This document shows, in pieces, positions 1,597 to 41,485 of a stretch of 64,000 bases of DNA. Both the position numbers and the translations under genes were made by a program. Position 1 is the first letter of the stretch; every line of letters begins with the position of its first letter. The notes below the pieces were generated by a model. That model was not told where the DNA came from, did no database searches, and was given only the letters and a program-made list of their open reading frames with translations. Origin of the DNA: Syntrophomonadaceae bacterium (GTDB lineage: Bacteria > Bacillota > PH28-bin88); contig JAGXSE010000009.1 of the NCBI GenBank assembly GCA_018333865.1, positions 201,460 to 265,459 on the forward strand, given 5' to 3'.

Positions 1597-1604
1597 CGCT
1601 GTTC

Positions 1605-1620
1605 CTTGCCCGAAGGCAAG
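1605..1620 (-). promoter_or_regulatory. UUCG hairpin over the hbd ribosome binding site
   Basis: On the minus strand the leader reads CTTGCC-TTCG-GGCAAG, a six-pair stem closed by the very stable C(UUCG)G tetraloop. Its 3' arm overlaps the AAGGA that serves hbd copy 1, while a stronger AAAGGAGGGG lies just upstream of the hairpin, too far from the ATG unless the hairpin brings it near. It could tune hbd translation within the operon. The structure is read directly; the effect is inferred. Confidence 0.5.
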
Positions 1621-1656
1621 CTCCCCTCCTTTACCTGTGACAGGTTTTTACTGCTA

Positions 1657-2523
1657 TCAAGTATAATCATAGAAACCCTTGCCCGTCTTTTTTCCCCACT
1701 CGCCTTTTTTATACTTTTCCTCAATCACCCTGGGCGGGCGGTCCTCCTCCAGGCCTGTTTCACTGAAGCGTTGTGCCCGCACCAGGTACGAAACATCGAT
1801 ACCATTCAGATCCATCAGCCGGAAAGGTCCCAACGGGTAACGCAAGGCCTTTTCTACGGCCAGATCGATCTCCTCATGGTTAGCAATCCCCTGTTCCAAC
1901 AAGGAGCAGGCTTCCCTGACCACTGCCCCCAAAATCCTGTTGGCCACAAACCCGGAAATCTCTTTTTTTAGTAAAATAGGAATTTTCCCCGTCCGGCGGG
2001 ACAGCTCCATAATTAACTGGGCGCTTTCTTCCGAGGTGTGAGGACCCTGAACTACCTCCACCAGCTCCATCACCAGGGCCGGGTTAAAGTAATGCATGTT
2101 CAAGACTTTGGCCGGACGATTGGTTGCGTCAGCGATTTTGGAGCTGACAATGGTGGAGCTGTTGGAAGCAAGGATGGTGCGGGCTGGGCAGATACTGTCC
2201 AGCGCGGCGAAAAGCTGCCTTTTAACGTCCAGTTTTTCCACCACTGCTTCAATCACCACATCCGCATCCCTGGCAGCGGTTTCCAGATCGGCTGCAAAAA
2301 CAATGGCCGCTTTAGCTTCCTCTGCTTTTTCCCCAGTCATTTTCCCCTTTGCTACTCGTGATGCCAGGTATTCCGCCGCCCAGTCCCGCGCTTTTTGCAA
2401 GACCTCCGGAGCAGTGTCCGTCAATGCTACCTGGTACCCATACAGTGCGGTATGCAGGGCAATCTGGGAGCCCATGGTCCCGGCACCAACTATGCAGACC
2501 TTTTTTACGTCTTCAATCCGCAT
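1657..2523 (-). CDS. hbd: 3-hydroxyacyl-CoA dehydrogenase, copy 2
   Basis: Second NAD-dependent 3-hydroxyacyl-CoA dehydrogenase, 288 residues, clearly diverged from copy 1. The Rossmann motif GAGTMG is at 13-18, the catalytic His is H144 in NMHYFNPAL and its partner is E156. The C-terminal domain holds EISGFVANRI and RYPLGPFRLMDLNG. The ATG is preceded by GGAGGAG with good spacing. It lies 60 bases upstream of copy 1 and 22 bases downstream of the CoA-transferase gene, so it is co-transcribed. The family is certain; why two copies are kept is unknown. Confidence 0.93.
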   Translation of the reverse strand: MRIEDVKKVCIVGAGTMGSQIALHTALYGYQVALTDTAPEVLQKARDWAAEYLASRVAKGKMTGEKAEEAKAAIVFAADLETAARDADVVIEAVVEKLDVKRQLFAALDSICPARTILASNSSTIVSSKIADATNRPAKVLNMHYFNPALVMELVEVVQGPHTSEESAQLIMELSRRTGKIPILLKKEISGFVANRILGAVVREACSLLEQGIANHEEIDLAVEKALRYPLGPFRLMDLNGIDVSYLVRAQRFSETGLEEDRPPRVIEEKYKKGEWGKKTGKGFYDYT

Positions 2524-2545
2524 CTTTTTTGCTCCTCCTCTTTGG

Positions 2546-3733
2546 CTAAATTACCCCCTCCTGCCGGAGGGCTGCCAGTTCTTCTTCCGTCATGTCAAGT
2601 AACTCTCTATACACCTCCTGGTTATGCTGCCCCAGGGTAGCAGGGGGCAGCCTGACAGTGCCAGGAGTCGCGGACAGCTTGACCGGGAAGCCCAGCAGGG
2701 GCAAAATACCCATGACAGGATGCTCCACTTCCAGGATCATCTCCCTGGCCTTAAGATGGGGGTCCTTAGCTACCTGGGCGATGGAATTGACCGGGCCGCT
2801 GGGAATCCCGGCTTTGTCCAGCTCATTGACGGCCTCTGTCACTGATCTGGCGGCTACCCAGAGGCTGATCGCCTGGTCTAGCTCCGCTTCGTTTTGTTTA
2901 CGGGAGTATGCACCGGCAAACCGGGGATCTGCGCTCAGATCGGGCCGCCCGATTAGATGCATCAAACGGTGAAAAAGGTTGTCGGCATTGGCCGATATGT
3001 AAAGGTATCCGTCTTTTGCTTGATAAGCGTTGCTCGGGGCAGTCAAGGGACGGTTGTTTCCGGCTCTTTTAATCTCCGTGCCCAGCAGGAGATAGACTGT
3101 GATGGCATTTTCCAGCAAGGTGACCAGCCCATCCAGCAAGGCCACATCCACATGCTGGCCGATGCCGTATCTTTCCCGGGCAAACAAGGCCAGCATCGTG
3201 CCCAAGGCGCCGTAAATCCCCGTCGTGATATCGGCTATCACTGGGCCGGCCTTGACAGGGGGGCCTTCCGGAAAACCGGTCAAATCCATCATCCCTCCCA
3301 TAGCCTGGATCACCATGTCCAGGGCCTGCCGGTCCCGGTAGGGGCCATACTGGCCAAACCCGGAGATGGAGGTTAGGATGAGGCGGGGGTTGAGCTGGCT
3401 TAAGTCGCGATAACCCAAGCCCATCCGGTCCAGCACGCCTGGCCGCAGGTTTTCGATCACCACATCGGCCTCTCTTGCCATCTGTTTAAACATCTCCCGG
3501 CCTTTTTCGGATTGCAGATTAAGGGTGACCGCCCTTTTATTCAGGTTGAAGGCGGTATAGTAGAGGCTTTCCCCTTTGTAATGGGGTCCGAGCTGCCGCC
3601 CGACCTCCCCTTCCCCTGGCCGTTCGATTTTAATCACATCTGCCCCCATGCCGGCCAAGATCTGGCCGCAAAAAGGACCGGCAATAAAATGGGTCAGCTC
3701 CAAAATCTTGATACCTTCCAGACATGTGCGCAC
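2546..3733 (-). CDS. CaiB/BaiF-type class III CoA-transferase
   Basis: Family III CoA-transferase moving CoA between acyl-CoA and a free acid through an aspartyl-CoA thioester. About 395 residues, typical length. The N-terminus LEGIKILELTHFIAGPF and the segment GPVIADITTGIYGALG, whose Asp is the expected nucleophile, are family hallmarks. The more upstream start would give eight extra residues; the GTG at 3733 is preferred because AAAAGGAGGG lies nine bases before it. It lies between the acyl-CoA synthetase gene and hbd copy 2, so it probably activates the transported acid using a product CoA-ester. The substrate cannot be read from sequence. Confidence 0.9.
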   Translation of the reverse strand: MRTCLEGIKILELTHFIAGPFCGQILAGMGADVIKIERPGEGEVGRQLGPHYKGESLYYTAFNLNKRAVTLNLQSEKGREMFKQMAREADVVIENLRPGVLDRMGLGYRDLSQLNPRLILTSISGFGQYGPYRDRQALDMVIQAMGGMMDLTGFPEGPPVKAGPVIADITTGIYGALGTMLALFARERYGIGQHVDVALLDGLVTLLENAITVYLLLGTEIKRAGNNRPLTAPSNAYQAKDGYLYISANADNLFHRLMHLIGRPDLSADPRFAGAYSRKQNEAELDQAISLWVAARSVTEAVNELDKAGIPSGPVNSIAQVAKDPHLKAREMILEVEHPVMGILPLLGFPVKLSATPGTVRLPPATLGQHNQEVYRELLDMTEEELAALRQEGVI

Positions 3734-3765
3734 CTGTAGTTCCCTCCTTTTCGCCACTTCCAGGA

Positions 3766-5919
3766 CTAGTTTTTGATCACCAGCGCGTCAGCCACTTTTA
3801 CCCCCTGCCCCCGGGGCAAGACGATTAAGGGATTGATATCCAGCTCCTTAATTTCTCCCCGCAGGTCAACCGCCAGCTCGCACAGCCTGAGCAGGGTGTC
3901 TACCAAGGCATCTACATCTGCCGGCGGCGCTCCCCGCACACCCTGCAAGAGGGGATAACCCTTGATTTCGCTAATCATCTCTTCTGCGTCCTCCCTGGTT
4001 AACGGCGCTATCCGGCAGGAAACGTCCTTTAACACCTCCACAAAGATGCCGCCCAGCCCGAACATGACCACAGGACCAAAGGGGCTGTCGTTATTGACGC
4101 CCAGGATGACTTCAATCCCTTTGCCCACCATTTCCTGAACCACGGCGCCCCTGATCTCAGCTGCCGGTGCGTAAGCCCTGGCATTGGCCATCACTTCCCG
4201 GAAAGCCGCTTCCACCTCTTCCCGGGTGGTTAGGTTCAAACGAATAGCCCTGGCTTCTGTCTTATGGGCAATATCCTTAGATTCTATCTTCACACAAACG
4301 GGAAAGCCCAGCTTTTCCGTCAGGTCCCCCGCCTCCTTGGCAGTAGTGGCCAAGTCTTCCCTGGTTACCGGAATCCCGTAAGACTGCAGCAATTTTTTGG
4401 ACTGGCGTTCCGTCAGGGTCCTGGAGGGGATTTCTTGCAGCCATCCGGTGTCCCCTGGGGATTGCCGGATCCGGTCGGCGGATGCTGCCGCACCACCACT
4501 TTTTTTGCGCATAAACTGCCCGTAGCGGACCAAGGCTCCCAAGGCCTGGGCAGTCTGGCCCGGGGTGTCGTAACAGGGGACCCCCTGGTCTTTCAGCAGT
4601 TGGCGCGCCTCCGGAGCCAGCCCCTTGGCGCCGCTCCAGGTGACCACCACCGGCTTATCCGTGCTTGCCGCCACCGCCGCGATATCGGTAACCAGCTGGT
4701 GGGCCAGTTGCCCGGTGGCGGTGCTTAACATCACTGTCACCATCTGAATGGAGGGGTCTGCCAGGAGGATGTGCATGGCCCGGCGGAACAGGGTGGTGTC
4801 CTGCAATACCTGGCCGGTCACATCCACCGGGTTCATGGCGCTGCCAAAAGGAGGAATGATCTTTAACAGCTCTTCCCTGGTGGTGCCGCTGAGTTCCGGC
4901 AACTTCAGCCCATGGTCTTCCGCGTGGTCGGCCATCAGGATACCGGCCCCGCCGGAAGCTGTGACCACCGCCAGACCATTGCCGGTGGGGATCTTGCCCG
5001 GGACAACAGCAAGGGCCATATCCACCAGGTCTGACATGTCATTGGCCAGCAAAACGCCGGTTTGGCGGAAAAGAGCGGTATAGACGGCGTGGCTACCGGT
5101 CATTGAGGCGGTATGAGAAATGGCTGCTCTGGCGCCGACCTCAGTCCGCCCGACCTTTAACACCAGAATCGGCTTATTCTGCAGGGAGGCTTGCCGGGCC
5201 AGATTAAAAAACTCCGCTCCATCGCGCCATCCCTCCAGGTAGACCAGGATGACCCGCGTAACCGGATCCTCGATCATGAAGCGCAGGTAATCGGCGACAG
5301 TCAGGTCTACTTCATTGCCGGAACTGATAACATAGGAAAAGCCCAGGCCCGCCTCTGCCGCAAAGGTGAATAAGCCATGGCCCAGCGCGCCGCTCTGGGA
5401 CACCAGGCCCACCGGTCCGGGCTTGTAGCCGTTTTTCTCGAAGACCGGGCTGAAGGTGGCCACCACCTGCCCAGGGAGGTTAACTGTGCCGAAGCAGTTT
5501 GGACCGCAAATCCGCATCCCGCTGGACCGGGCCAGGCTAGCCAGGCGCTCCTGCAGTTGTTTCCCTTCTTCTCCCACCTCGGCAAAGCCAGAGGTAAAAA
5601 TAACCGCATTTTTAACTCCCTTTGCCCCGCACTCTGCCAGGGAAGCCAACAGCCGCTCGGCGGAAACGGCGACGATGGCCAGATCCACCTCGCCAGGGAT
5701 ATCCGCTACACTGGGGTAGCAGCGGAAGCCGGCAATCTCGCCATACTTCGGGTTAACCGGGTATATATATCCTTGATAACCATTGCCAGCCAGGTACTTG
5801 ATCGGCCGGCCGCCGATGCTGTCCGGATTGTTGGACGCACCGATTATGGCCACACTGCGGGGGTAGAAAAATGATCTCAATTCTTCGGCGGTGGCTTGCA
5901 CCCGCTTCCTCCTCCTCAT
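3766..5919 (-). CDS. acetate/acyl-CoA ligase (ADP-forming), fused alpha-beta subunits
   Basis: NDP-forming acyl-CoA synthetase that converts acyl-CoA + ADP + Pi to acid + CoA + ATP, the usual ATP-yielding last step in anaerobes that make acetate from acetyl-CoA. From the ATG it is about 717 residues in one chain: CoA-binding Rossmann domain (FFYPRSVAIIGASNNP near the start), succinyl-CoA ligase-like domains carrying the phospho-His motif SHTASMTG, then a C-terminal ATP-grasp domain with GLGGIFVEVLKDV. The first possible start overlaps the thiolase gene. The ATG at 5919 has AAGGA, inside the thiolase stop region, at good spacing. A GTG at 5901 is also credible because the codons between are themselves a run of AGGAGG. 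It follows the thiolase gene, matching thiolase, then acetyl-CoA, then acetate + ATP. Confidence 0.93.
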   Translation of the reverse strand: MRRRKRVQATAEELRSFFYPRSVAIIGASNNPDSIGGRPIKYLAGNGYQGYIYPVNPKYGEIAGFRCYPSVADIPGEVDLAIVAVSAERLLASLAECGAKGVKNAVIFTSGFAEVGEEGKQLQERLASLARSSGMRICGPNCFGTVNLPGQVVATFSPVFEKNGYKPGPVGLVSQSGALGHGLFTFAAEAGLGFSYVISSGNEVDLTVADYLRFMIEDPVTRVILVYLEGWRDGAEFFNLARQASLQNKPILVLKVGRTEVGARAAISHTASMTGSHAVYTALFRQTGVLLANDMSDLVDMALAVVPGKIPTGNGLAVVTASGGAGILMADHAEDHGLKLPELSGTTREELLKIIPPFGSAMNPVDVTGQVLQDTTLFRRAMHILLADPSIQMVTVMLSTATGQLAHQLVTDIAAVAASTDKPVVVTWSGAKGLAPEARQLLKDQGVPCYDTPGQTAQALGALVRYGQFMRKKSGGAAASADRIRQSPGDTGWLQEIPSRTLTERQSKKLLQSYGIPVTREDLATTAKEAGDLTEKLGFPVCVKIESKDIAHKTEARAIRLNLTTREEVEAAFREVMANARAYAPAAEIRGAVVQEMVGKGIEVILGVNNDSPFGPVVMFGLGGIFVEVLKDVSCRIAPLTREDAEEMISEIKGYPLLQGVRGAPPADVDALVDTLLRLCELAVDLRGEIKELDINPLIVLPRGQGVKVADALVIKN

Positions 5920-5930
5920 AGTTAATATCC

Positions 5931-7118
5931 TTAGACCATTTCCACTATAGTGGCCATACCCTGGCCTCCGCCCACGCAAAGGGTAGCCAATCCATAACGG
6001 CTTTGCCGCCTGGCCATTTCATGGAGCAGGGTGACGATTAGGCGGGTGCCTGTGCTGCCCAGGGGATGCCCTAAGGCTATCGCGCCACCGTTGACATTGA
6101 TTTTTTCGAGGTCAAGACTTAATTCTCTGATTACGGCCAGGGCTTGCGCAGCAAAGGCCTCGTTTAATTCGATCAGGTCGATGTCAGCCAAGGTAAGCCC
6201 GGTTTTGTCCAAAACCTTGGCCACTGCCGGCACCGGGCCAATACCCATCACCCGGGGGGAAACCCCAGCAACAGCGATACCGACGACCCGGGCCAGGGGT
6301 TTAACCCCTAAGGATTTCACTTTGTCCCCCGACATCACCACCATCGCCGAGGCCCCGTCGTTACGGCCGCAGGAATTCCCCGCTGTCACCGATCCTCCCG
6401 GCTTGAAAGCCGGTTTTAGTTTGGCCAAGGCAACCAAAGAAGTGTCGGGCCGGGGGAATTCATCCACAGCAAACTGTACGCTGCCCTTTTTCCCCATCAC
6501 ATCGACCGGTACGATCTCAGCTTGAAATTTCCCTTCGGCGATGGCCCTGGCAGCCAGCTCCTGGCTTCTTAAAGCGAACAGGTCCTGGTCTTCCCGGCTA
6601 ATGTGAAACTCCTCGGCCACATTCTCCGCAGTCTGGCCCATGCCCAGATTGGACCCGTAGGTTTCCACCGGCTGGGCCCGGGAACCACCTTCGATATTGG
6701 GATCGATCAGCTGCAGTTCTTCATCGCCAAAACGCCCGTTCCGGAGATAATGGGGCGAGCGGCTCATGTTCTCCGTGCCCCCCACCACCACGATCCCGCT
6801 TTCTCCCAGCATGATCTGCTGGCAGCCGCAGTTTAAAGCCTGCATGGCAGAAGCGCACAGGCGGTTGATGGTGTAGGCCGGCACTTCCTCCGGGATGCCG
6901 GTAGCCAAGGCTGCTACCCGGGCCACATTGGCGTTTTCGGTGCTCTGCCTGGCTTCGCCCATGATTACCTCGTCGACCTGGTCCGGCTTAAGCCCGGCCT
7001 TTTCCAACGCCGCAAGGATCGCCGCTTTGGCCAGGTCCCTTGCGGAAACTGTCCTTAAGGTGCCGCCAAACCTTCCGATCGCCGTCCTGGCTGCGCTGAC
7101 AATAAATACTTCGCGCAT
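5931..7118 (-). CDS. acetyl-CoA C-acetyltransferase (thiolase)
   Basis: Degradative/biosynthetic thiolase splitting acetoacetyl-CoA with CoA to two acetyl-CoA. The 395 residues match the family. The nucleophile is C88 in [12 protein letters not shown], the catalytic His is H351 in [10 protein letters not shown], and the second Cys is C381 in CVGGGQGM; all are intact. The ATG is preceded by GGAAGGGG. The stop codon overlaps the AAGGA of the acyl-CoA synthetase start, so the two are tightly linked. It lies directly downstream of the 4-hydroxybutyryl-CoA dehydratase-type gene. Confidence in the family is very high; acetoacetyl-CoA as substrate is inferred. Confidence 0.95.
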
Positions 7119-7138
7119 TGTTTTTTTCCCCTTCCCGG

Positions 7139-8566
7139 TTAATCTGCTATACCTGCAAGGTATTTGGCAATTTTTTTCTTGGCCTCCAGGTCATACATGG
7201 CCCTGATGGCGATCTTTTCCATGATGGGCGAGCCGCCACCGTGGATGCCGCTGATTTGCGATGCCGCCCCCGGCGCCGAGGCAATCAGGTTTTCAATCAG
7301 CCGGTAGCATCGATGCACCTTTTCCGGCGGTACGTCAGCCTTGCGCATGATGTATTTATCTAAAAACCCCTTGGTTTTTGGGTTAATAAAGTCCTCTTCC
7401 TGGGGCAAGGTGGCGGCAAGGCCCCCGGCGATGTCGGCCAGGACTTCAAACTCATGGTAGATATTAACTCCGGCATGATAGCGGGCCACATTGGTATAGA
7501 CCACATCCGGGACACAGGTGCCGGAGGCCGTTTTCCGCCCGCAGACCGAGGCCGCGATCCCTGCGGCATAGACCAGTTCGGCAACAGTGATCATCTCGGC
7601 CAGTTTATCCCGCACATGGGAAGCCTTTTCGATGCCGTTATACTCTGCTACCAGGGCTGTGGCCCCCAGCAGGATGTCGGTCATCGCCGGTTTGCACCCG
7701 GAATAGCTGTGGCGGTGGTAGGTAGCGAACAGAGCCGCCAGTTGCCCGGCCTGCTTGGTCTCCCCGCAGAGGAAGACCCGTTCCCAGGGCACGAAAACGT
7801 CATCGAAAACAGTAATGGAGTGGGCAGCGCCGGTGTTTTCAATCGGGGCATGAAATTTTTTTCGTTTGCGCTGGTTATGGGCCACGCTGATCAGATAGAG
7901 CCCCTCGGCATCTGCCGGGATCGAAAAGGCAACCGCATAATCCCCGTCGTCCTTGGTCATCGCCCTGGTGGGGACAGCAATGATCTCGTCCGTATAAGGC
8001 GCAATGGTATTATGAGCCTTCGCCCCCCGGACCACAATCCCGTCGGCCCGCTTTCCCACTACCCTTAAGTACTGGTCCGGGTCCTTTTGCTCGAAGGGAC
8101 GCAAGCCGCGATCACCCTTGACATCGGTCTGAGCACAGTTGGCAACCAAGTCCCCGGCTTGAAAATAGTGCAGGAATTTTAAAAAGCGCTCATGGTAGCT
8201 AGTACCGTGTTCCAGATCGGCGTCTTTGGTCACCACCGAGAGGGCGCTCATGGCGTCAATCCCCATGCAACGCTGGATACAGCGGCCAGCCCTGTGACAC
8301 AAGAGGCGGGTCAATTTTTGCTTCTGCAAAAGATCATCAGTGTTCTGATGGATGTGGTTAAAACGGTTGATTTTCTCTCCTGTTAGGTGAGAAGTAGTGA
8401 TTAAAAGGCCTGCAAATTCCGGCTCCTGCACCAGGTTATAGGTCAGGCCGATAGTATGGATGCCGGGCATGAACTGGGGGTCGTCCCGGGGAACCAGTTT
8501 TCCCCCCAGGTAAACATTGGGACGCATCCCCCGCAGCTTGGTCAAATACTCTTCAAAGGTCCGCAT
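7139..8566 (-). CDS. abfD: 4-hydroxybutyryl-CoA dehydratase / vinylacetyl-CoA Delta-isomerase
   Basis: Member of the HpaB/4-hydroxyphenylacetate hydroxylase fold, 475 residues. The radical dehydratase branch binds one [4Fe-4S] cluster through three Cys and one His (C99, C103, H292, C299 in Clostridium aminobutyricum). Here the same pattern is present as C96 and C100 in GRCIQRCMG and H284 and C291 in [11 protein letters not shown], with spacings of 4 and 7 conserved. This argues for a true FAD/Fe-S dehydratase converting 4-hydroxybutyryl-CoA to crotonyl-CoA, not an oxygen-dependent hydroxylase. Crotonase, HBD, thiolase and ADP-forming ligase genes follow downstream, completing a route to acetate. 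Vinylacetyl-CoA isomerisation is the alternative activity of the same enzyme. Confidence 0.9.
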
Positions 8567-8674: not shown

Positions 8675-9307
8675 TTAAACTACCCGGCCTAACTCCATTG
8701 GCCTGGCTGCTGCCAGCCCCATCTGGAAGGCTTTAAAATTGAGGCTGGCTGCTTCCCCTTTGAACTGGGCGGCAATAACCGGACTAAAGTCTCCTTCCCC
8801 CAAGGGAATTAACCGGGACCCAACAAGTGCCCCAACCATTACCATGTTAGCCACTACCGGATTGCCGGCCTCTATTGCCAGGTGAGAGGCCTCAATGGTC
8901 TGCACCAGCCGGCTCTGACGGCGGATTGCTTCCACCAGGACTTCCAGGGAGGGATACTGCATCTCGCCCCTGAGCACCCCCAGCGGATATACCGGGCGGG
9001 TATTCATCAAGACCATCGTCTCCGGATTACCGTATTCCCGTAAAATGCGCAAGGTCTCCAGGGGTTCCAAGCCCAGGACGATATCAGCCCGGCCCCTGGG
9101 AATCAGTGGTCCAAGACAAGCCTGCCGCCCCAGCCGCACATGGCTCATAACGGATCCCCCCCGCTGGGAAGCGCCAAAAGTCTCGCCCACCGTCACCTGA
9201 AAGCCCTGCCCGGCAGCGGCATGAGCCAGGACCTGAGAAGCCAGCACGTTTCCCTGGCCGCCAACGCCGGTAATCACGATATTGATCAGGCCTTGAATTG
9301 CTAACAT
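8675..9307 (-). CDS. iorB: indolepyruvate ferredoxin oxidoreductase, beta (gamma-domain) subunit
   Basis: Small subunit of a 2-oxoacid:ferredoxin oxidoreductase, about 210 residues from the ATG at 9307. It starts MLAIQGLINIVITGVGGQG, and the GVGGQG loop is diagnostic of the POR/KOR gamma domain. GETFGASQRGGSVMSHVR is the IorB-type signature. The longer frame upstream is a false extension that reads through a decayed copy of the iorA 3' end. The ATG has GGGAGG nine bases upstream. iorA ends 555 bases upstream instead of directly abutting, because extra DNA lies between them (see 9312-9862). A sigma-54 promoter at 9521-9536 gives iorB its own likely start of transcription. Confidence 0.92.
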   Translation of the reverse strand: MLAIQGLINIVITGVGGQGNVLASQVLAHAAAGQGFQVTVGETFGASQRGGSVMSHVRLGRQACLGPLIPRGRADIVLGLEPLETLRILREYGNPETMVLMNTRPVYPLGVLRGEMQYPSLEVLVEAIRRQSRLVQTIEASHLAIEAGNPVVANMVMVGALVGSRLIPLGEGDFSPVIAAQFKGEAASLNFKAFQMGLAAARPMELGRVV

Positions 9308-9311
9308 ATGA

Positions 9312-9406
9312 TCATACCTCCCTTTCCACCATGATCGCCTGCCGGGGACAAAGAGACGCGCAAACCCCGTAGCCGTTGCATATTGCGGCATCGATCCGGG
9401 CCTTGC
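9312..9406 (-). pseudogene. decayed duplicate of the 3' end of iorA
   Basis: This stretch matches the last part of iorA (9863-9961) at roughly nine of ten positions, including the stop codon. Read in the iorA frame it gives the C-terminal ferredoxin-like segment, but the first Cys pair is changed from CNGCGVC to CNGYGVC, so one cluster ligand is lost. It ends eight bases before the iorB ATG. This is probably the original iorA end that abutted iorB before extra DNA was inserted. It now forms part of the iorB leader. Confidence 0.85.
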
Positions 9407-9520
9407 CACAACTTACCGTGACTAGCTTTACGGGATGCCAGCTCTCCTGACCCTGAAGGGATTTTCAGGATAGGTTGCTGTTTGGATTGCAATTAGGATG
9501 CAGTAGATGCAGTTATATAT

Positions 9521-9536
9521 AGCAAATTTTGTGCCA
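9521..9536 (-). promoter_or_regulatory. sigma-54 promoter upstream of iorB
   Basis: On the minus strand the sequence is TGGCACAAAATTTGCT, which fits the -24/-12 pattern TGGCA-N6-TTGC with GG and GC exactly 10 bases apart. Transcription would start about 12 bases downstream of the GC and run through the decayed iorA tail into iorB and the genes after it. The same type of site occurs at 16596-16611 and 25770-25785. Confidence 0.75.
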
Positions 9537-9664
9537 CATGAAAACATCTGAATTCTCGGATTATTACGAAAAAATACGCCTCACTTTCAATGCAAAAGTT
9601 TATTGAGAATGCAATTGCGCATTGAAAGGCTGCCCCGAGCAGCTTCTGGTTTAATTCCAATACT
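9521..9664 (-). repeat. structured promoter repeat, copy A
   Basis: About 140 bases that recur at 16596-16740. From the promoter-distal end, on the minus strand, both copies have a short GC hairpin (9629-9643 here), a longer stem (9584-9593 with 9619-9628, ten pairs here), the palindromic core around GCAATTGC, a 21-base identical block (9540-9560), and then the sigma-54 box. Stem sequences differ between copies but pairing is kept. It is a duplicated control region, and may include activator-binding sites. Confidence 0.75.
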
Positions 9665-9678
9665 AGGCAGTAGAATAC

Positions 9679-9795
9679 ATGGATGAGTTTAATAAATATT
9701 ATGCCGCTCCCAACAGAAAACCTCATTTTCCTTATATCATGCGGGTGCTAATCCAGAAAAATGATGATGCAGTAAGAGGTTTGCTTGATGCCTAG
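9679..9795 (+). CDS. small ORF of unknown function in the iorA-iorB insertion
   Basis: A 38-codon plus-strand frame from an ATG at 9679 to TAG at 9793, ending in VLIQKNDDAVRGLLDA. Its end overlaps the start of a toxin-like fragment at 9788 in the way two-gene toxin-antitoxin operons overlap. No strong ribosome site is visible, and the N-terminal side runs into the promoter repeat. I do not recognise the protein. It may be the surviving end of a longer gene. It is AT-richer than the surrounding catabolic genes. Confidence 0.3.
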   Translation: MDEFNKYYAAPNRKPHFPYIMRVLIQKNDDAVRGLLDA

Positions 9796-9862
9796 TTGGA
9801 GAGAATTAAAGCGATTCTGTGAACGGGATGGATGGGAACTATATAAAAATACAGATACCTGA
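9788..9862 (+). pseudogene. truncated HicA-like toxin N-terminus
   Basis: Twenty-four codons beginning MPSWRELKRFCERDGWELYK, then NTDT and a stop. The ELKRF-x-ERDGWELYKNTD pattern resembles the N-terminus of a small HicA-type mRNA interferase family in which about 50 further residues should follow. The frame breaks exactly where iorA-tail sequence (TGATCATACC) begins, so the toxin was cut by the rearrangement that joined it to iorA. It is transcribed against the iorAB operon. The HicA assignment is from memory of the family and is tentative. Confidence 0.45.
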
Positions 9863-11785
9863 TCATACCCCCCTCTCCACCATGATCGCCTGCCGGGGAC
9901 AAAGAGACGCGCAGACACCGCAGCCGTTGCATATCGCGGCATCGATCCGGGCCTTGCCGGCGGCCTCGTCCCAGATATTGGCAGGGCAGGAGTATATCCG
10001 GTTACAAAAACGGGCACAGCCACAAGATTCGGCAACGCAGCGTTCCTGATCCACATACACCCTGGGCTGCAGCTTTTCCTTGGCTGCCACCAGGGCACAT
10101 GCCCGGCGCAGGATCAGGACTTTGGCTCCCGGCTCCTGTAGCAGGCGGTAAACCAGGTTGGTGGTTGATTCCACCTCAAAAGGGTCTTGCACATACACCG
10201 GCAGCCCCACCCCTTGCACCACCTCTTCAATACTTAACCTGGGTGCCGGATGACCGAAAACATCGATGGCAGACCCCGGATGGGGCTGGTGGCCAGTCAT
10301 GGCCGTGGTTTCATTGTCCAACACAATACTGAGGAAATCCGCTCGGCTACGCCTGGCATTGATCAGGGCCGGCACCACAGCATGATAAAAGGTAGAGTCC
10401 CCGACTACCGAGATGGTAGGCTGGCTATACATGAACTGGCCTAGCTTCCCGAAACCGCAGGCCAGGCCTGCGCCGGATCCCATGGAGTGGAGGGTATGCA
10501 GCAAGAAATGGCCGGTCTTGCCCCTGCCGATGGCATAACAGCCGATATCCCCCAACACTAACCCTTCCCGGGCATCAAGTTGCAGGGAGGTCTTGATCGC
10601 CCAAAGGGAGGCCCGGTGCGGGCACCCGGCACAGAAGGCCCGGTCCCTTTCCGGTAGGGCAGCAGGCAAATCCTCCGCGGCTAAACGATGATACTCATCC
10701 GGCCTTGTCTGATAGACTATACCGGCAACCCAGCTGAGCACCTGGAGCATGATGTCCACGTCCATTTCCCCGATGCCGGGACCTTTGTCCCCAGCCACCC
10801 GGCCGTTCTTTTTGCCGAAGATCTCCTGCACCGGCAAGCTGTCCCGGTGGTAGGCCATCAGGCTGGTGACCAATTCCTCGATGAAGGGTTCTACTTCCTC
10901 GCAAAAAACCGCCTTTGCAGCATTCTTAAGGTGCTTTAAGATCAACCCCTCAGGCAGAGGCCAGGTCATTCCCAGTTTGAGCAGACCAATCCTGTCCGAA
11001 AGGCCAAGCATCTCTAGTGCCTCTTTAGTGTAAAAATAGCCCGGCCCTGCCGTGATCACCACTATTTCCGCCTCCAAAGGCCCTTCATAGTGGTTATAGG
11101 GGCTCTTTTCCGCCCAGGCGGCCGCCCGTGCCAGCTTCCTTTCTAATTCAGGATGGGCCTGGGGCGTGGTCAGAAATTTCTCCGTCCTCCCAATGCGGGC
11201 AACCGGCCCTGGGCCGGGAAGATCGCCGAGAATCACATTACCACTGGCGTGGCAAACCCGCGTTACATTCCTCACGATAATTGGCAATCTTAATTCTTCC
11301 GACAATTGAAAGGCTGTTTTCACCATCTCCTTGGCCTCCTGGGGGCTGGCTGGCTCCATCACCGGCAGGTGCGAAACCCTGGCCAGATACCGGGAATCCT
11401 CTTCCTTGATGCTAGAATGAGCAGCAGGGTCATCCCCGAGCAGGATCACCATTCCTCCCTTGCAGCCGGAAAGAGAGACGCTGGTGAGAAAATCCAGCGC
11501 TACGTTCATGCCGTCAGGCTTCATCACACTGATAGAGCGCAGCCCGGCAAAGGAAGCCGCCGCCGCTGCCTCGGTAGCCACCTTTTCATTGATGGACCAT
11601 TCGGCGTACAGCCCAAATTCCCCGGCTACCTTTGCCAATACCTCGATCACTTCTGCCGTGGGCGACCCCGGGTAGGAAGCAGCAAACCGGACTCCGGCCT
11701 CGATGGCACCTCTGGCCGCCGCCTCATTTCCTGTCAGCACCACAGAGCGCCCGGATTCCCTTAAACCCACTGCCGTCTCTCTCAT
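9863..11785 (-). CDS. iorA: indolepyruvate ferredoxin oxidoreductase, alpha subunit
   Basis: Large subunit of an arylpyruvate (or related 2-oxoacid):ferredoxin oxidoreductase, oxidatively decarboxylating the oxoacid to acyl-CoA and reducing ferredoxin. At 640 residues it is full length. It has the N-terminal POR pyrimidine-binding domain (GNEAAARGAIEAG, YPGSPTAEV), then the ThDP-binding domain with GDIGCYAIG and a GDSTFYHA...LDNETTAM pair near residues 415-520, and a C-terminal two-cluster ferredoxin domain ending CNGCGVCASLCP (C619, C622, C625, C629). The start overlaps the frhB-like stop by four bases (ATGA). Its companion iorB is separated by an insertion. Context with CoA-thioester genes suggests its ferredoxin and acyl-CoA feed the same pathway; the true oxoacid is unknown. 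Confidence 0.94.
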   Translation of the reverse strand: MRETAVGLRESGRSVVLTGNEAAARGAIEAGVRFAASYPGSPTAEVIEVLAKVAGEFGLYAEWSINEKVATEAAAAASFAGLRSISVMKPDGMNVALDFLTSVSLSGCKGGMVILLGDDPAAHSSIKEEDSRYLARVSHLPVMEPASPQEAKEMVKTAFQLSEELRLPIIVRNVTRVCHASGNVILGDLPGPGPVARIGRTEKFLTTPQAHPELERKLARAAAWAEKSPYNHYEGPLEAEIVVITAGPGYFYTKEALEMLGLSDRIGLLKLGMTWPLPEGLILKHLKNAAKAVFCEEVEPFIEELVTSLMAYHRDSLPVQEIFGKKNGRVAGDKGPGIGEMDVDIMLQVLSWVAGIVYQTRPDEYHRLAAEDLPAALPERDRAFCAGCPHRASLWAIKTSLQLDAREGLVLGDIGCYAIGRGKTGHFLLHTLHSMGSGAGLACGFGKLGQFMYSQPTISVVGDSTFYHAVVPALINARRSRADFLSIVLDNETTAMTGHQPHPGSAIDVFGHPAPRLSIEEVVQGVGLPVYVQDPFEVESTTNLVYRLLQEPGAKVLILRRACALVAAKEKLQPRVYVDQERCVAESCGCARFCNRIYSCPANIWDEAAGKARIDAAICNGCGVCASLCPRQAIMVERGV

Positions 11786-12885
11786 TCTACCTGCACCCCC
11801 AGAGATCTGACTTGCTTTTGATAGGAATCCGACATCGAAAGATATGTGATTTCTCCTTTTTCCATGCCCTGCAGCACCCGCAGTTTTTTGTTCAGGGCCG
11901 CCCGGCGCAAGAGTGGCTCACGCTCCGATGGGTATGGCTTAACCTCCAGCACTCCGGCCCGCTTAGCCTCTTCTACCAGTTTAGCTCCCTGCTGGGTGCG
12001 CACTACCAGGGTATTCCAGTCAAGGTCCCATTCTGTTGAGCCCACGGAAATATCGGCAAACTCAGCGGTACAGTCAAAGCACTGCAGACATGCCGGCCTG
12101 ATTAAGGGCCGCACCTGGTCTACCGGCCAGCGGACTATTCCGCTTGCAGTCTCAATCTCCAATCCTTCCTGGGGGATATCCATCCCGGTTACCTGCTCAG
12201 GATCAACCTGGCCGGCAAGCCAGGGGTAGAACTGAGGTGACAAGGCCCAAAAGCAAAAAAGACCGATGACCAGGGATGGATTGCCCTGAGGCAGGTGTGG
12301 CGCCTGGTTTCCAGCAGTTAGGCCTTGTAATTTGCGGACAGCGATAACCTGGCACGGCCGGCCAACTACTCCCGTTCGCCGGCTGCCCTCTCTCACTGCT
12401 TGGTGAAAGTTCATTAATGTGGGGCAGGCCGAGTATTTTGACCTGCCGCAGGCCAGCACTTCTTCCCTGGAACGGGCAACCATGGGGACAGGGAAGCCGG
12501 CCCCCTTTCCCTGCGCGCAAACAACTGCATCCACATACCCCTGCTCCAAGGCAAAAATATTTAAGGCACTCACTGTTCCGCCATACTGGCTTTTACTGGC
12601 GATCTCCCTGTCCACCGCCCGGGAAAAAGACAAAGCCAGATGATGGCCTAGGGCCGGGTCTCGCCGCTTCTCGCCAAAGACCTGGCAGTCAAGCTGGTCT
12701 AAATCGATCAGGCCACGGGGACAGACCAGGTAGCAATTTCCTTCTTCCAACCCGCAGGGGTGGATTACCGCCACCTTCTCCTCAATGGTTTTAAGGTACG
12801 GACACATACCCACACACATCCCGCACCCGGCGCACAGGTTCCGATCCAGCACTTCCGCCTGCAATTCCCGTACTCCCCTTGGCAT
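11782..12885 (-). CDS. coenzyme F420 hydrogenase/dehydrogenase beta-subunit (FrhB/FdhB) family protein
   Basis: A 367-residue Fe-S flavoprotein of the FrhB/FdhB family, whose members pass electrons between ferredoxin-type clusters, FAD and F420 or another carrier. The N-terminal ferredoxin motif CAGCGMCVGMCP has C18, C21, C24 and C28. The middle holds ALNIFALEQGYVDAVV and GRPCQVIAVRKLQGL, typical of the FrhB core, and further Cys pairs lie in RPACLQCFDCTAEFAD. AAAGGAGGGAG precedes the ATG and its stop overlaps iorA by four bases, so the two are translationally coupled. It may link IorAB ferredoxin electrons to another acceptor. F420 itself need not be involved, since the family is broad in Firmicutes. 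Confidence 0.85.
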   Translation of the reverse strand: MPRGVRELQAEVLDRNLCAGCGMCVGMCPYLKTIEEKVAVIHPCGLEEGNCYLVCPRGLIDLDQLDCQVFGEKRRDPALGHHLALSFSRAVDREIASKSQYGGTVSALNIFALEQGYVDAVVCAQGKGAGFPVPMVARSREEVLACGRSKYSACPTLMNFHQAVREGSRRTGVVGRPCQVIAVRKLQGLTAGNQAPHLPQGNPSLVIGLFCFWALSPQFYPWLAGQVDPEQVTGMDIPQEGLEIETASGIVRWPVDQVRPLIRPACLQCFDCTAEFADISVGSTEWDLDWNTLVVRTQQGAKLVEEAKRAGVLEVKPYPSEREPLLRRAALNKKLRVLQGMEKGEITYLSMSDSYQKQVRSLGVQVE

Positions 12886-12915
12886 TAGCTCCCTCCTTTG
12901 TCGTTGAACCGTCCG

Positions 12916-12972
12916 GACCAGGTACTTCGAAAAAAGTACGGTCCCGCAACATACCGGGATCAGTATTGCGGG
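12916..12972 (-). promoter_or_regulatory. paired hairpins between TAXI permease and frhB-like gene
   Basis: Two adjacent stems on the minus strand. The first (12943-12972) is CCCGCAA/TTGCGGG with extra pairs, and includes the permease stop codon. The second (12916-12943) is GACC..GTACTT/AAGTAC..GGTC. Six T residues lie in the 5' arm and loop of the second stem, seven bases after the first, so the first could act as a weak terminator. They may set different mRNA levels for the transporter and the enzyme part of the operon. Function is inferred. Confidence 0.5.
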
Positions 12973-14852
12973 ATGCCTGAGCTCCTGCTCTTGTTGGGGA
13001 ACAACTGGGGGACCACCACCAGCAGGCCAAGCAACAGGCCTATTAAATCGGTAAATTCGCCTGTCTCAATTAAGAAAAGGGCTCCTCCCAGCAACACTAC
13101 CCTTTGCAACACGTTAATCCGCCGGAAAACATACCCCTGCACCCCTCCAACCAGCAGCCAGACCCCCAATAGGGCCGTAACGATGGCTCTGATCACCGCC
13201 AGCGGCTCCCCGATCAACAACAACTCTGGCCCGTAGGCAAACATAAAGGGCACCACGAAAGCAATTATGCCGAACTTGGTGGCATAAAAGCCTGTCTGGA
13301 TTGGGGGCGACTGGGCCAGCCCAGATGCGGCATAGGCCGCTATGGCAACAGGAGGGGTAATGGCTGAAATGCAGGCGTAGTACAACACAAACAGATGGGC
13401 AGCAATTGGTGTCAGCCCCAGCTGGACCAGCACCGGCGCTCCTAAGGTGGCAGTGATGATGTAGGCGGCTGAGGTCGGCAAACCCATCCCCAAAACCAAA
13501 CAAGCTACTGCAGTCAACAGGAGAGCCAACAACAAGTGCCCCCCGGATGCGGTTACAATCAAACTGGAAAAACGCAAGCCCAAACCGGTCATGGTGACGA
13601 TCCCGATGATGATGCCAGCTGTCGCACAAGCCGCAACCACCACCAAACTGGCCTTGGCTCCGGACTCCAGGGCATCCAGGATGCGCCGCAAGGTCATCCT
13701 GCTTTGCCGGCTGAAATAACTGACCACTACTGTAACTATAATAGCCAAGAGAGCTGCCCTGGTAGGCGAATAAAAGAGGACTACCAGGGTGTAGATAATG
13801 GTAATTAGTGGGATCAGGTAAAAAAAGCCCTGCTTAAGCACTACCCACAGCACGGGCAGCTGTTCTTTAGGCATGCCCTTCATGCCCGCCTTCACCGCTT
13901 CCAGGTGCACCATTAAGCCCACAGAAACAAAATAGAGCACGGCCGGCAGGATGGCGGCAATGACCACCTGCCCATAGGCAATCCCCAGTATTTCCGCCAT
14001 GATAAAAGCAGCGGCACCCATCACCGGCGGCAAAATCTGGCCCCCGGTGGAGGCTACGGCCTCAATAGCCCCGGCCACCGTTGGATGGTATCCCACCCGT
14101 TTCATCAGCGGAATGGTAAAAGTGCCGGTTGTAACTACATTGGCGGCCGCAGAACCGGAGATGGTTCCCATCAAGGAACTGGATAATACGGCAGTCATGG
14201 CTGGCCCGCTCCTGCTCTTGCCGGCTATGGCATAAGCCATGTTGACAAAAAACTCCCCTGCGCCAGATTTCTCCAGAAAGGCTCCGAATAAAATAAATAA
14301 AATGATGAAGGTTGCCGATACCCCCAAGGGAATACCATAGATCCCTTCGGTAGTAAATGCCACTTGTTCGATAATTTGGACAGGCCCATAACCCCGGTGA
14401 GCCAGCAATGAAGGCAGGTCGCGGCCAAAATAGGCATAGCAGATAAATACAAGGGCCAGGATGACCAGTCCGTTACCACAAACCCGCCTGGTTGCCTCTA
14501 ACAGCAACAGCACTAAGAGGGCGCCGATGGCCAGATCCAAAGGGCTTAGCCCTACCAATGCTCTCTCAGTTAGCTTTGCGGGGGAAGCATAGATTGCCAT
14601 GTAAAAACCCACCAGCAGGGCCAAGCCCACAAACAACGCATCCAAAACCCTTCCCCACCGCCAATTTGGTTTAAAGGGATAGAGCATGAATATCAGGACC
14701 AGGGCAAAGGTCAGATGCACACCTCTTTGCAGCATGGCTGTCAACAAACCAAATCCAGCGGTATAAATGTGGAATAGCCCCATTGCCCAAGCAATAACAC
14801 TCGCTAAACCTATGCCGGCAAACAATTTAGTCCCCAGAAGATCACCTCCCAT
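12960..14852 (-). CDS. TAXI-family TRAP transporter fused permease (DctQM-like)
   Basis: A 630-residue fused 4TM/12TM permease of the TAXI branch of TRAP transporters, working with the extracytoplasmic binding protein encoded just upstream to import an organic acid using an ion gradient. Many long hydrophobic segments run throughout. The DctM-type core includes GAFLEKSGAGEFFVNMAYA, GSAAANVVTTGTFTIPLMK and LGMGLPTSAAYIITAT. The first codon is doubtful: the ATG at 14852 has a poor ribosome site, while ATGGGAGGTGATC itself contains a near-perfect Shine-Dalgarno sequence that would suit a rare CTG start at 14837. It is in an operon with a DUF1850 gene and the binding-protein gene, the usual TAXI trio. 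Confidence 0.92.
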   Translation of the reverse strand: MGGDLLGTKLFAGIGLASVIAWAMGLFHIYTAGFGLLTAMLQRGVHLTFALVLIFMLYPFKPNWRWGRVLDALFVGLALLVGFYMAIYASPAKLTERALVGLSPLDLAIGALLVLLLLEATRRVCGNGLVILALVFICYAYFGRDLPSLLAHRGYGPVQIIEQVAFTTEGIYGIPLGVSATFIILFILFGAFLEKSGAGEFFVNMAYAIAGKSRSGPAMTAVLSSSLMGTISGSAAANVVTTGTFTIPLMKRVGYHPTVAGAIEAVASTGGQILPPVMGAAAFIMAEILGIAYGQVVIAAILPAVLYFVSVGLMVHLEAVKAGMKGMPKEQLPVLWVVLKQGFFYLIPLITIIYTLVVLFYSPTRAALLAIIVTVVVSYFSRQSRMTLRRILDALESGAKASLVVVAACATAGIIIGIVTMTGLGLRFSSLIVTASGGHLLLALLLTAVACLVLGMGLPTSAAYIITATLGAPVLVQLGLTPIAAHLFVLYYACISAITPPVAIAAYAASGLAQSPPIQTGFYATKFGIIAFVVPFMFAYGPELLLIGEPLAVIRAIVTALLGVWLLVGGVQGYVFRRINVLQRVVLLGGALFLIETGEFTDLIGLLLGLLVVVPQLFPNKSRSSGIPQY

Positions 14853-14879
14853 GAGGCTATTAATTTCGCGTTTCTTCTG

Positions 14880-15422
14880 CTATGGCCGCAGATCGTAGAT
14901 CTTTAAAATCCGGGGAATCGGCACAATTTTTAGCACAAGCAGGTATCCTCCCGGTACCAGTTCCCCCAAGGCTATGCTGGACCCTTCCGTCTCCAGGTAC
15001 TGCGGAACGATGGAGGCTACCCTGACCAGAAGGTTGGAAAATATAACTTCCTGGTACCTGGCGATATTAGTTATCCGGACAAAACCCTCCTGATCGAGGC
15101 TAAAATCACCCGGATATGTCTGGTCTCTGGCATCATAGCTAACTACCTGAAAACGATGGGCGGATAAAACAAACCTCCGGTGATCCTTAACTTGATAAGT
15201 CTCCTCAACCCATCCCTGATCATAAGAATGGAGGAAACGAAGCGTAAATTCCCGCCCAACTCGTGTGTCCTGCCGGTAGACAACCTTCCCCGACTCCCTC
15301 TCAACCAGAACTATCGCAGGGATTAGCCAGAGATAATATCCGATGATCCCGATCAAAGCCGTGATCAGTCCTAGTTTTGCCAACAACCGAAATTCCTTTC
15401 GAACAAGCCCATCCCGGCTCAC
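14880..15422 (-). CDS. DUF1850 domain-containing protein
   Basis: A 180-residue protein with one N-terminal membrane segment (about residues 15-37) and an extracytoplasmic DUF1850 domain (FLHSYDQGWVEETYQV, then SYDARDQTYPGDF). DUF1850 proteins are encoded between TAXI binding proteins and TAXI permeases in many bacteria; their role is not established, possibly accessory to transport. The GTG start shares one base with the stop of the upstream gene and lies only two bases after AGGAGG, so a slightly downstream TTG (preceded by AAAGGA) is an alternative. Its neighbours fit the standard gene order. Confidence 0.82.
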   Translation of the reverse strand: MSRDGLVRKEFRLLAKLGLITALIGIIGYYLWLIPAIVLVERESGKVVYRQDTRVGREFTLRFLHSYDQGWVEETYQVKDHRRFVLSAHRFQVVSYDARDQTYPGDFSLDQEGFVRITNIARYQEVIFSNLLVRVASIVPQYLETEGSSIALGELVPGGYLLVLKIVPIPRILKIYDLRP

Positions 15423-16468
15423 TACCTCCTCAGCTCCGGCGGAAGCAGTTCAGCGGGGATCGTCATCCCTTTTTCCCGGTAATACCTTACTGCCCCAGGG
15501 TGCAAGGGCACGGGTATTCCATCAAGCGCAGTGTTTAAAGTCATATCTGCAGTCACAGCGTGAGCATCCTTCCACTCATCTCTTTTTTCCCAAATAGCTC
15601 TGGTAATCTGGTAGGCATCCTCTTCCGTCATGTCCGCCCTGGTTATAATAATCCCGCGCCAACTCATGGTAGAAATGTCCTGCTGCTGGCCCGAATAGGT
15701 GCCTGCCTTGATAGTATCGGCCAACCAGCCGGGGAGTTCTTTAACCAGCTGATCGACAACCTCTTTGTCCATTGGAATTAGCCTCATCCCTTTAGTCAGA
15801 GCAAATTCCATAAAGACACCAGTAGGCACAGGCATCAGGGATATGGACAGATCAAGATTGCCGTCCCCCATCGCGGTTACCTGTTCCGGCACTGACAGGA
15901 ACTGTTCCTCGACATGATCATAGGTAAAGCCATATTTTGAAAGCACATTTTTCGCATAAACTTCCGTGCCGCTGCCTGGAGCGCCAACACCTATCCTGCG
16001 TCCCTTGACATCTTTCAGGCTCTTTATTGGGCTATCTTTGGGGGCGATAAAGTGGGCCACAGATCGGTTGGTAGACGTCAGCGCCCGTATGGTATCGAAT
16101 TTTTTCCCCTCGTACAAACCTGTGCCGGTATATGCCCTATGAACAATATCAGGCTGCGCAAAAGCCATATCCACCTTTTTATCCTGCAAATTGCGCAGGT
16201 TTTCCAAGGTCGCCCCACTTGTTTCCACATTTGCCTGGATGTGCGGCACATGTTTTGTTATTACCGCGGCTATCCCACCGCCTACCACATACCACGCACC
16301 CACCGTTGAAGCAGTGGCAATAGATACCCATTTTCGCTCCACCTTTTTCTCCTCTGGCTTGGGCGCTTCTTTCCCAGTTTTAGCCCCGCACCCCGCCATT
16401 ACCGTAGAAAGCATTAAGACCACCACAAGCAAAATTATCAGCCCATGTTTTTTTCTATGGATTGCCAT
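15422..16468 (-). CDS. TAXI-family TRAP transporter solute-binding lipoprotein
   Basis: Extracytoplasmic substrate-binding subunit, about 348 residues from the ATG at 16468, which has GGGGAGGGG just upstream; a longer frame adds only 11 unlikely residues. It has a lipoprotein signal: basic MAIHRKKHG, a hydrophobic stretch and lipobox VMAGC. The mature protein has TAXI hallmarks: WVSIATASTVGAWYVVGGGIA near the start and RRIGVGAPGSGTEVYAKNVL in the middle. It binds an organic or amino acid whose identity cannot be read. It is first in the operon and lies downstream of a sigma-54 promoter at 16596-16611. Confidence 0.92.
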   Translation of the reverse strand: MAIHRKKHGLIILLVVVLMLSTVMAGCGAKTGKEAPKPEEKKVERKWVSIATASTVGAWYVVGGGIAAVITKHVPHIQANVETSGATLENLRNLQDKKVDMAFAQPDIVHRAYTGTGLYEGKKFDTIRALTSTNRSVAHFIAPKDSPIKSLKDVKGRRIGVGAPGSGTEVYAKNVLSKYGFTYDHVEEQFLSVPEQVTAMGDGNLDLSISLMPVPTGVFMEFALTKGMRLIPMDKEVVDQLVKELPGWLADTIKAGTYSGQQQDISTMSWRGIIITRADMTEEDAYQITRAIWEKRDEWKDAHAVTADMTLNTALDGIPVPLHPGAVRYYREKGMTIPAELLPPELRR

Positions 16469-16595
16469 CCTTACCCCTCCCCCTGAAACAAAATTTTGCA
16501 TAGTTACCCAATCTAAGACAGATCCCCCCTCCCGTTACTTGATAGATCACGAGACAATCTGGCAATACTTGTCTGAGGCAGATGATTTTGCTCTT

Positions 16596-16611
16596 TGCAA
16601 GTTCCATGCCA
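16596..16611 (-). promoter_or_regulatory. sigma-54 promoter upstream of the TAXI operon
   Basis: The minus-strand sequence TGGCATGGAACTTGCA matches TGGCA-N6-TTGCA with GG and GC ten bases apart. The start of transcription would be near 16585, giving a leader of about 117 bases to the lipoprotein ATG. No strong terminator is seen before the insertion at 9.4-9.9 kb, so it could drive at least the TAXI genes, the frhB-like gene and iorA. Confidence 0.78.
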
Positions 16612-16696
16612 GCCGAAAACATCTGAATTCTCGGATAATTACGATTATTTATCCCTTGCTGTTAATGCAGAAGTTGATTCTCGATGCAATTGCGCA

Positions 16697-16720
16697 TTAA
16701 AAAGCCGCCTTTTGGGCGGC
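16697..16720 (-). terminator. terminator of the 16820-17185 gene
   Basis: On the minus strand GCCGCC-CAAAA-GGCGGC is followed by TTTTT, a good intrinsic terminator about 100 bases beyond the stop of the small membrane-protein gene. It forms the distal stem of promoter repeat copy B. Confidence 0.75.
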
Positions 16721-16819
16721 ATTAGATTTAATTCCTATTGAGGCCTGCGCCATAGCGGACCAAACTAGACCCTTGCAGGCGATTTTAACTAGTCGACTAA
16801 ATACCCTGCAATTTCACCA

Positions 16820-17185
16820 CTATTGCTGAAACAGCAAGGATCGCAAATGTGTGAGTTCCTCGACGGAAAGTTTATCGCGTAAGATAACCAGGGCTTGCTG
16901 CACTTCTTCGGCAGTAACCCCGCCTGCAGCCAGCTCATTGATTTGCCCCAGCGTTTCAATGCCTAAGGTTTGCAGGACTGGTAACAGAGCTATCAGTCCG
17001 CCAATCCCCTCAATTCCCTCTACTGGCACAGCCGGCAAAGCCCCCGAAACACTCTCAAGTGCCGGCTGCAATACAGTGCTCACAGCATTCAGGTATTGCA
17101 AGGCCAGCGGCCAGATGATAAAGTAAACGGCACCAACGATTATGGTCAGGCAAAGAAAAAGTAAAATTATCAATGTTTTGATCAT
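16820..17185 (-). CDS. small membrane-anchored protein of unknown function
   Basis: A 121-residue protein with a hydrophobic N-terminus (residues 3-27, no lipobox), a Gly/Ala/Leu-rich middle and a charged, helical C-terminal part (TAEEVQQALVILRDKLSVEE). It is probably anchored in the membrane with the rest outside or lying along it. The ATG follows AGGAGGTAGCAC, a strong site. It lies 28 bases downstream of an FCD-type regulator gene and may be co-transcribed with it, ending at the terminator near 16700. I do not recognise the family. Confidence 0.7.
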   Translation of the reverse strand: MIKTLIILLFLCLTIIVGAVYFIIWPLALQYLNAVSTVLQPALESVSGALPAVPVEGIEGIGGLIALLPVLQTLGIETLGQINELAAGGVTAEEVQQALVILRDKLSVEELTHLRSLLFQQ

Positions 17186-25785: not shown

Positions 25786-25799
25786 GGATTGTTACCAAG

Positions 25800-25827: not shown

Positions 25828-25859
25828 GTTAATTGTTATGAATTGCTCCGGACAACTTT

Positions 25860-41293: not shown

Positions 41294-41301
41294 CTTTAGG
41301 T

Positions 41302-41482: not shown

Positions 41483-41485
41483 TCC

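Follow-up and report, generated by a model that had tools for sequence, protein, structure and literature searches.

How do two operons that begin with unrelated genes come to be headed by related control regions? The question is raised by a stretch of 64,000 nucleotides (the window) from a Syntrophomonadaceae bacterium, a spore-forming anaerobe (GCA_018333865.1, contig JAGXSE010000009.1, positions 201,460 to 265,459). One region, here called P, lies ahead of an operon that starts with the gene for a TAXI-family transporter protein; the other, P', lies between iorA and iorB. A sequence-only reading had seen in the pair a portable control cassette ending in a sigma-54 box, which would place transport and enzyme genes under one activator. 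The explanation that we favour, at a probability of about 0.75, is that P and P' are copies of an enhancer-dependent sigma-54 promoter responding to a single activator, and that P' arrived later as part of a mosaic insertion.

A promoter region present twice

On the - strand, which carries all of the genes around P and P', positions 9522-9634 and 16597-16709 are identical at 86 of 113 positions in an ungapped alignment (76%). The next best ungapped placement of the copy in the window gave 53 matches, the mean being 28 with a standard deviation of 4.7, and in searches of the organism's own genome (3.2 Mb in 71 contigs) P and P' were reciprocal BLAST matches (78% over 103 bp, E 4e-17 to 5e-17). 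A gapped alignment carried the homology as far as GGAATTAAA (9650-9658 in P' and 16727-16735 in P); past this element, and past the -12 box at the other end, the likeness was no better than that of shuffled sequence. As similarity fell to the shuffled level outside both ends, the unit is a discrete one of about 137-139 bp, occupying 16597-16735 in P and 9522-9658 in P', both on the - strand.

The two related same-strand stretches of the sequence-only reading, each with its sigma-54 box (TGGCACAAAATTTGC in P' and TGGCATGGAACTTGC in P), were thus confirmed, and a genome-wide search found matches at exactly two places, P and P', both of which end in a box. No third copy was detected in the genome with the 191-bp P' region as query, and both a 23-bp core (up to three mismatches allowed) and the palindrome ATGCGCAATTGCAT (up to one mismatch) occurred there solely at P and P'. 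Outside this genome, P gave just 22-26-bp matches at chance level in 60 relatives, and copies were absent from the two further genomes of this class that were compared (G001 and G002) and from viral contigs, plasmids and phages.

A discrete, sharp-ended unit present in two copies, one of them inside a split operon, could be expected of a mobile repeat such as a miniature inverted-repeat transposable element (MITE) or a repetitive extragenic palindromic (REP) sequence that carried a promoter by chance. However, neither terminal inverted repeats nor a transposase were found at P or P', the genome has just two copies while the relatives and the collections of mobile DNA have none, and a target duplication made by a transposon would be far shorter than the 99-bp duplication flanking P' (see below). 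The pair therefore shows none of the features by which insertion sequences, MITEs and REP sequences are recognised (terminal inverted repeats, transposase, many copies), and we regard this origin as very improbable. Of the proposed portable cassette, the control region stands; a portable, recurring character is not supported, with two copies and no signs of a mobile element.

Parts of the control region

Read 5' to 3' on the - strand, the unit consists of GGAATTAAA, a hairpin, a palindrome, a TGCATT half-site, a 22-bp block, 3 bp and the -24/-12 box. The boxes, TGGCATGGAACTTGC(A) in P (16597-16611, read from 16611 to 16597) and TGGCACAAAATTTGC(T) in P' (9522-9536, read from 9536 to 9522), both have GG at -24 and GC at -12 with the correct spacing. 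About five such boxes are expected by chance in 64 kb, so that the context of a box matters. The genome contains rpoN and 13 full or partial matches to sigma-54 activators, and this, together with the boxes, bears out the suggestion that these are promoter regions ahead of transport and catabolic genes.

The predicted enhancer, or upstream activating sequence (UAS), is the palindrome ATGC-GCAATT-GCAT (16684-16697 in P and 9609-9622 in P', - strand), a motif enriched beside one activator subfamily. It is placed exactly 86 bp ahead of the TGGC of the -24 box in both copies and is contained in one of the two perfectly shared stretches, AATGCGCAATTGCAT, which the sequence-only reading had passed over. 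About 26 bp downstream of it the TGCATT element, TGCATTAACAGCA in P (16657-16669, -) and TTTGCATTGAAAG in P' (9584-9596, -), may be a second activator half-site, degenerate in P.

The other perfectly shared stretch is the block ATCCGAGAATTCAGATGTTTTC (16615-16636 in P and 9540-9561 in P', - strand), which is otherwise unique in the genome. The sequence-only reading was right about its identity and less exact about its dimensions, the block being 22 bp rather than 21 and lying 3 bases, not four to five, ahead of TGGC. An identical run of this length is by itself mildly unusual at 76% identity (permutation p 0.03), and the shared AATGCGCAATTGCAT with its palindrome is more telling. The block does contain a weak dyad, GAGAA-N8-TTTTC, that might be the site of a second regulator. 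It can be imagined that an insulated, self-contained unit was moved whole by mosaic repair, splitting the operon but leaving it unharmed, and that the 22-bp block serves a second regulator shared by both copies; we think this rather unlikely, and if it were true, enhancer-dependent promoters could spread in one piece, and a regulon could be assembled around a single activator in this way.

Each copy is headed by a hairpin. That of P (16704-16720, -; GCCGCC-CAAAA-GGCGGC followed by TTTTT) has a stable GC stem, a T tract and a folding z of -3.6, which is a good terminator form, and it follows the genes for a GntR/FCD regulator and a 121-aa protein. The hairpin of P' (9629-9643, -; GCTGC-TCGGG-GCAGC followed by CTTTC) follows iorA. 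Between the two there is one compensatory T-A/C-G difference, the covariation amounting to a single pair. The 121-aa protein, encoded at 16820-17185 (-) between the GntR/FCD regulator and P, gave no Pfam match.

The candidate activator and its motif

Past the end of the gene run headed by P' lies a gene for a sigma-54 activator (G000:C9:193027-195138) of 704 aa with CBS, two PAS, AAA+ and helix-turn-helix (HTH) domains, orthologues of which (72%) are found in both G001 and G002. To examine the link between the activator and the palindrome, loci around similar activators were collected across the phylum (L100-L129 and L130-L149); sigma-54 boxes were counted at 10 or more consensus bases, and a palindrome was scored with at most one outer base off and within 220 bp upstream of the box. 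ATGC-N6-GCAT was present upstream of 16 of the 27 boxes beside activators of the CBS-PAS-PAS-AAA+ subfamily, and in exact form at 12 of them; downstream of the boxes it was seen at none of the 27. The count expected was 0.9 for random stretches of the same loci and 1.7 for AT-rich ones. Half-sites at other spacings (2-11, excluding 6) were not found, except for a single match at spacing 9. Where loci had been chosen by activator identity alone, the palindrome was present at 8 of 16 boxes (binomial p 1.6e-6), and beside activators of other subfamilies it was absent from all 12 boxes, or from all 18 with a looser definition of the box. The subfamily also differs in its HTH, which reads ...TYKxAxxLxVxQSTVVRK..., in contrast to the usual ...AAxLGIxRxxLYxK... 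of the control activators.

The motif mostly takes the form ATGCA-N4-TGCAT, and several of the sites adjoin genes for TAXI-type transporters. Ahead of the G001 orthologue of TAXI, which is 70% identical, stand a sigma-54 box and, at -78, ATGCTGCAGTGCAT; in G002 an operon containing TAXI (box L049:834) carries ATGCAGAAATGCAT, while the activator gene itself (box L048:7091) has ATGCAATATTGCAT upstream in its own promoter. In a TAXI locus of a Dethiobacter metagenome-assembled genome, reached by protein search of genome contigs, a sigma-54 box (TGGCATCTCCTTTGC) precedes TAXI and the palindrome is absent. Of 399 genomes sampled from the phylum, 103 had subfamily matches at E <= 1e-120. From the association with boxes, ATGC-N6-GCAT appears to serve as the enhancer for a widespread subfamily of activators marked by the HTH signature QSTVVRK, and the CBS-PAS activator of this genome probably binds the palindrome. 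With a related control region ahead of each, the two operons probably respond to a single activator; the proposal of one common activator thereby gains support, by inference from the shared palindrome and the association with the subfamily. The best curated model for the protein was PrdR (NF041552), with 491 bits over residues 242-697, below the cut-off of 795 bits, and an N-terminal CBS domain is present in addition to the PrdR architecture.

A second sigma-54 circuit in the window

The window itself contains another CBS-PAS-AAA+-HTH sigma-54 activator gene (25957-27568, -), the reading frame of which is shifted in a run of G exactly at the GAFTGA loop, and which is either a pseudogene or the product of a sequencing error. 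As it sits in the same catabolic island as P and P' and is, within the window, the activator gene nearest to them, it might be supposed to control both. Its HTH, however, is of another type, the usual one described above; its frame is broken at the loop; and its neighbouring promoter has a different palindrome. The frameshift and the different HTH type make it a poor candidate for the regulator of P and P', and we give this possibility very little credence. The neighbouring promoter, TGGCAACAATCTTGC (region 25771-25877, box 25771-25785, -), lies ahead of a CoA-transferase gene and carries the palindrome TGTCTAAAATGCTAGACA (TGTC-N10-GACA); the stretch from palindrome to box contains a strong hairpin, AAGCCCGAAATTTCGGGCTTTTTT. 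The UAS form TGT-N10-12-ACA of FhlA/NifA-like activators, the common class in PMC6615313, is therefore present at this promoter and not in P or P', where ATGC-N6-GCAT is found. Distinct HTH types together with distinct palindromes indicate that the window holds two separable sigma-54 circuits, with P and P' probably belonging to that of the CBS-PAS activator past the P' run.

The iorA/iorB junction and the origin of P'

In G002, FrhB, iorA and iorB are contiguous, with few bases between them, and are located apart from TAXI. In the window iorA and iorB are about 550 bp apart, separated by a mosaic of about 450 bp and a copy of the tail of iorA. The mosaic is made up of an antitoxin-toxin fragment on the other strand (9665-9859, +), P' and 113 bp (9408-9520); neither the fragment nor the 113 bp has another match in the genome. 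The fragment starts where the homology of P' ends and stops at the iorA junction. It includes the C-terminus of a PHD-like antitoxin (9679-9795; PF12910, E 1.3e-10, profile positions 104-139 of 141) and a short open reading frame (9788-9862), cut off at the iorA junction, that is probably the start of the toxin; it gave no profile match. After the 113 bp, the last 99 bp of iorA appear a second time (9309-9407, -). This copy is 94% identical to the original 3' end (9860-9958, -), ends in the ribosome-binding site of iorB and is a pseudo-fragment in which one cluster cysteine codon has been changed to tyrosine. The whole looks like the outcome of a templated, mosaic repair insertion; assembly errors across 9300-9960 may also lie behind this structure.

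The repeats at this junction are of unequal age: the 99-bp copy has diverged by 6%, compared with 24% between P and P' (Fisher p 5e-4). P' was hence either already different from P at the time of insertion or came from a relative. The site of P is probably the older of the two, as a sigma-54 box and palindrome occupy the same place ahead of TAXI in G001.

The latter alternative, that P' does not derive from the P of this genome and was transferred horizontally, together with the antitoxin-toxin fragment, from a relative having an orthologous promoter of the same activator (xenologous regulatory transfer), is a serious possibility, which we nevertheless hold to be less probable than the favoured explanation. 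It accounts for a divergence between P and P' in excess of that of the iorA duplicate formed at insertion and for the fragment and 113 bp with no other match in the genome, and the surroundings of the P' -12 element are 90% identical over 21 bp to a sigma-54 promoter that precedes a gene for acyl-CoA dehydrogenase in G001. Against it, no donor was found in G001 or G002, in the 60 relatives, or among plasmids and phages, and the upstream likeness of P' to the G001 promoter was not significant (p 0.08). That promoter (L046 9223-9252) is a possible distant homologue of the P/P' region, the homology being at a suggestive level only (p 0.03-0.08).

Alternatively, a tandem duplication reaching from P to iorA, the inner part of which was then deleted, could have left P' and the iorA tail, and so account at once for the presence of both ahead of iorB; promoter capture of this kind has been documented experimentally in Escherichia coli and Bacillus subtilis (PMC11111574). 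Such an event predicts equally old repeats, whereas 24% and 6% divergence were observed; moreover, the DNA downstream of P' is unlike that downstream of P, and the antitoxin-toxin fragment has no counterpart ahead of P. We therefore consider it unlikely.

Genes behind P and P'

P heads a run, all on the - strand, of a TAXI-family TRAP solute-binding protein (15422-16501; TIGR02122, E 5e-86), a DUF1850 protein (14880-15422), a fused TRAP permease (DctM; 12960-14852), an FrhB/FdhB-like subunit (11782-12885) and, last before P', an iorA-like 2-oxoacid:ferredoxin oxidoreductase alpha subunit (9863-11785; TIGR03336, E 3.6e-160, below the cut-off of that model). The first gene after P' encodes an iorB-like subunit (8675-9307, -; ATG at 9307-9305) and is followed by a long run of CoA-type enzyme genes, which within the window occupies 736-8566 (-). 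Encoded here are a 4-hydroxybutyryl-CoA-dehydratase-like HpaB, whose nearest match is 4-hydroxybutyryl-CoA dehydratase (1u8v), a thiolase, an ADP-forming acyl-CoA synthetase, a CaiB-type CoA-transferase and two 3-hydroxyacyl-CoA dehydrogenases. The run extends past the window, where it encodes enoyl-CoA hydratase, acyl-CoA dehydrogenase, MaoC, a further TAXI system (the second) and a short-chain dehydrogenase/reductase (SDR); a gap of 226 bp then precedes the activator gene.

Elsewhere in the window, a candidate REP-like element (41298-42206) comprises palindromic repeats, AGACAAGGGGACGGTTCTCCTGTCT and their complements, and two 108-bp copies (97%). These flank a 155-aa open reading frame with no Pfam or NCBIfam match, near germination genes.

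Discussion

In the mechanism that we propose, the cytoplasmic CBS-PAS-PAS-AAA+-HTH activator would bind ATGC-N6-GCAT at -86, reach by looping the sigma-54 polymerase poised at the -24/-12 box, and open the promoter complex in response to a metabolite or to the energy state of the cell, sensed by its CBS/PAS part. P would drive the TAXI transporter, FrhB and IorA, and P' would drive IorB and the beta-oxidation-type enzymes, while transcripts coming from the genes before each copy would be terminated at its hairpin. At a later time an illegitimate insertion of the mosaic repair type would have placed the copy P' between iorA and iorB. The final 99 bp of iorA would have been duplicated in the same event, leaving iorB with its ribosome-binding site; iorB and the enzyme genes would thereby have gained a start of their own, in step with transport and under the same activator.

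Several observations weigh against this explanation. Given its divergence, P' may be a copy not of P directly but of a diverged relative of P. A paralogue of the activator (G000:C56), 55% identical and of the same subfamily, could bind the same motif. The activator gene may be transcribed separately, since 226 bp that include a hairpin part it from the gene before it; for the same reason feedback onto the activator's own gene, though possible, is doubtful. The hairpin of P' has a weak T tract, shows no folding excess and was not scored as a terminator, and the proposed mechanism gives the 22-bp block no function.

The sequence-only reading knew of no named element of this kind, yet named concepts do exist. 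Putative mobile promoters are reportedly similar short promoter regions found ahead of unrelated genes in one genome, for which about 80% or more identity and repeated occurrence are expected. P and P' resemble them in having non-homologous genes behind them (TAXI and iorB) and a similarity that ends at the -12 box, but they are enhancer-dependent, include a terminator-like hairpin and amount to two copies of about 77% identity (76-78% by the measures used here), fewer and less alike than is expected of mobile promoters. In horizontal regulatory transfer, non-coding control DNA is said to be exchanged without its genes; in the case of P' an operon has received an insert instead of one allele being switched for another, and the searches for a donor found none. 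Promoter capture by illegitimate tandem duplication provides a gene with a promoter without long homology (PMC11111574), a feature shared by P', although the P' insert combines three or more pieces in a mosaic and its repeats differ in age.

The closest regulatory parallels are the catabolic sigma-54 promoters of Firmicutes (Nie et al. 2019, PMC6615313). These promoters, like P and P', have a -24/-12 box, an upstream palindrome for an HTH activator, an activator gene nearby and targets in fermentation or beta-oxidation-type metabolism, and activators with CBS and PAS domains are listed. Fifteen motif groups of activators are described there as using TGT-N10-12-ACA, the class to which PrdR is assigned. 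From these fifteen groups P and P' differ in having ATGC-N6-GCAT in place of TGT-N10-12-ACA, and a further difference is the duplication of the whole promoter region. The ingredients (sigma-54 promoters with activator palindromes, promoter capture and mobile promoters) are all known; no published description of this duplicated-promoter arrangement was found in our literature searches.

The locus would show, in readable form, how a regulon grows when an entire enhancer-sigma-54 promoter is copied into the operon next to it, and the scars of the event can still be seen. In addition, the predicted ATGC-N6-GCAT motif may allow many catabolic operons of anaerobic Firmicutes-type bacteria to be assigned to their activator.

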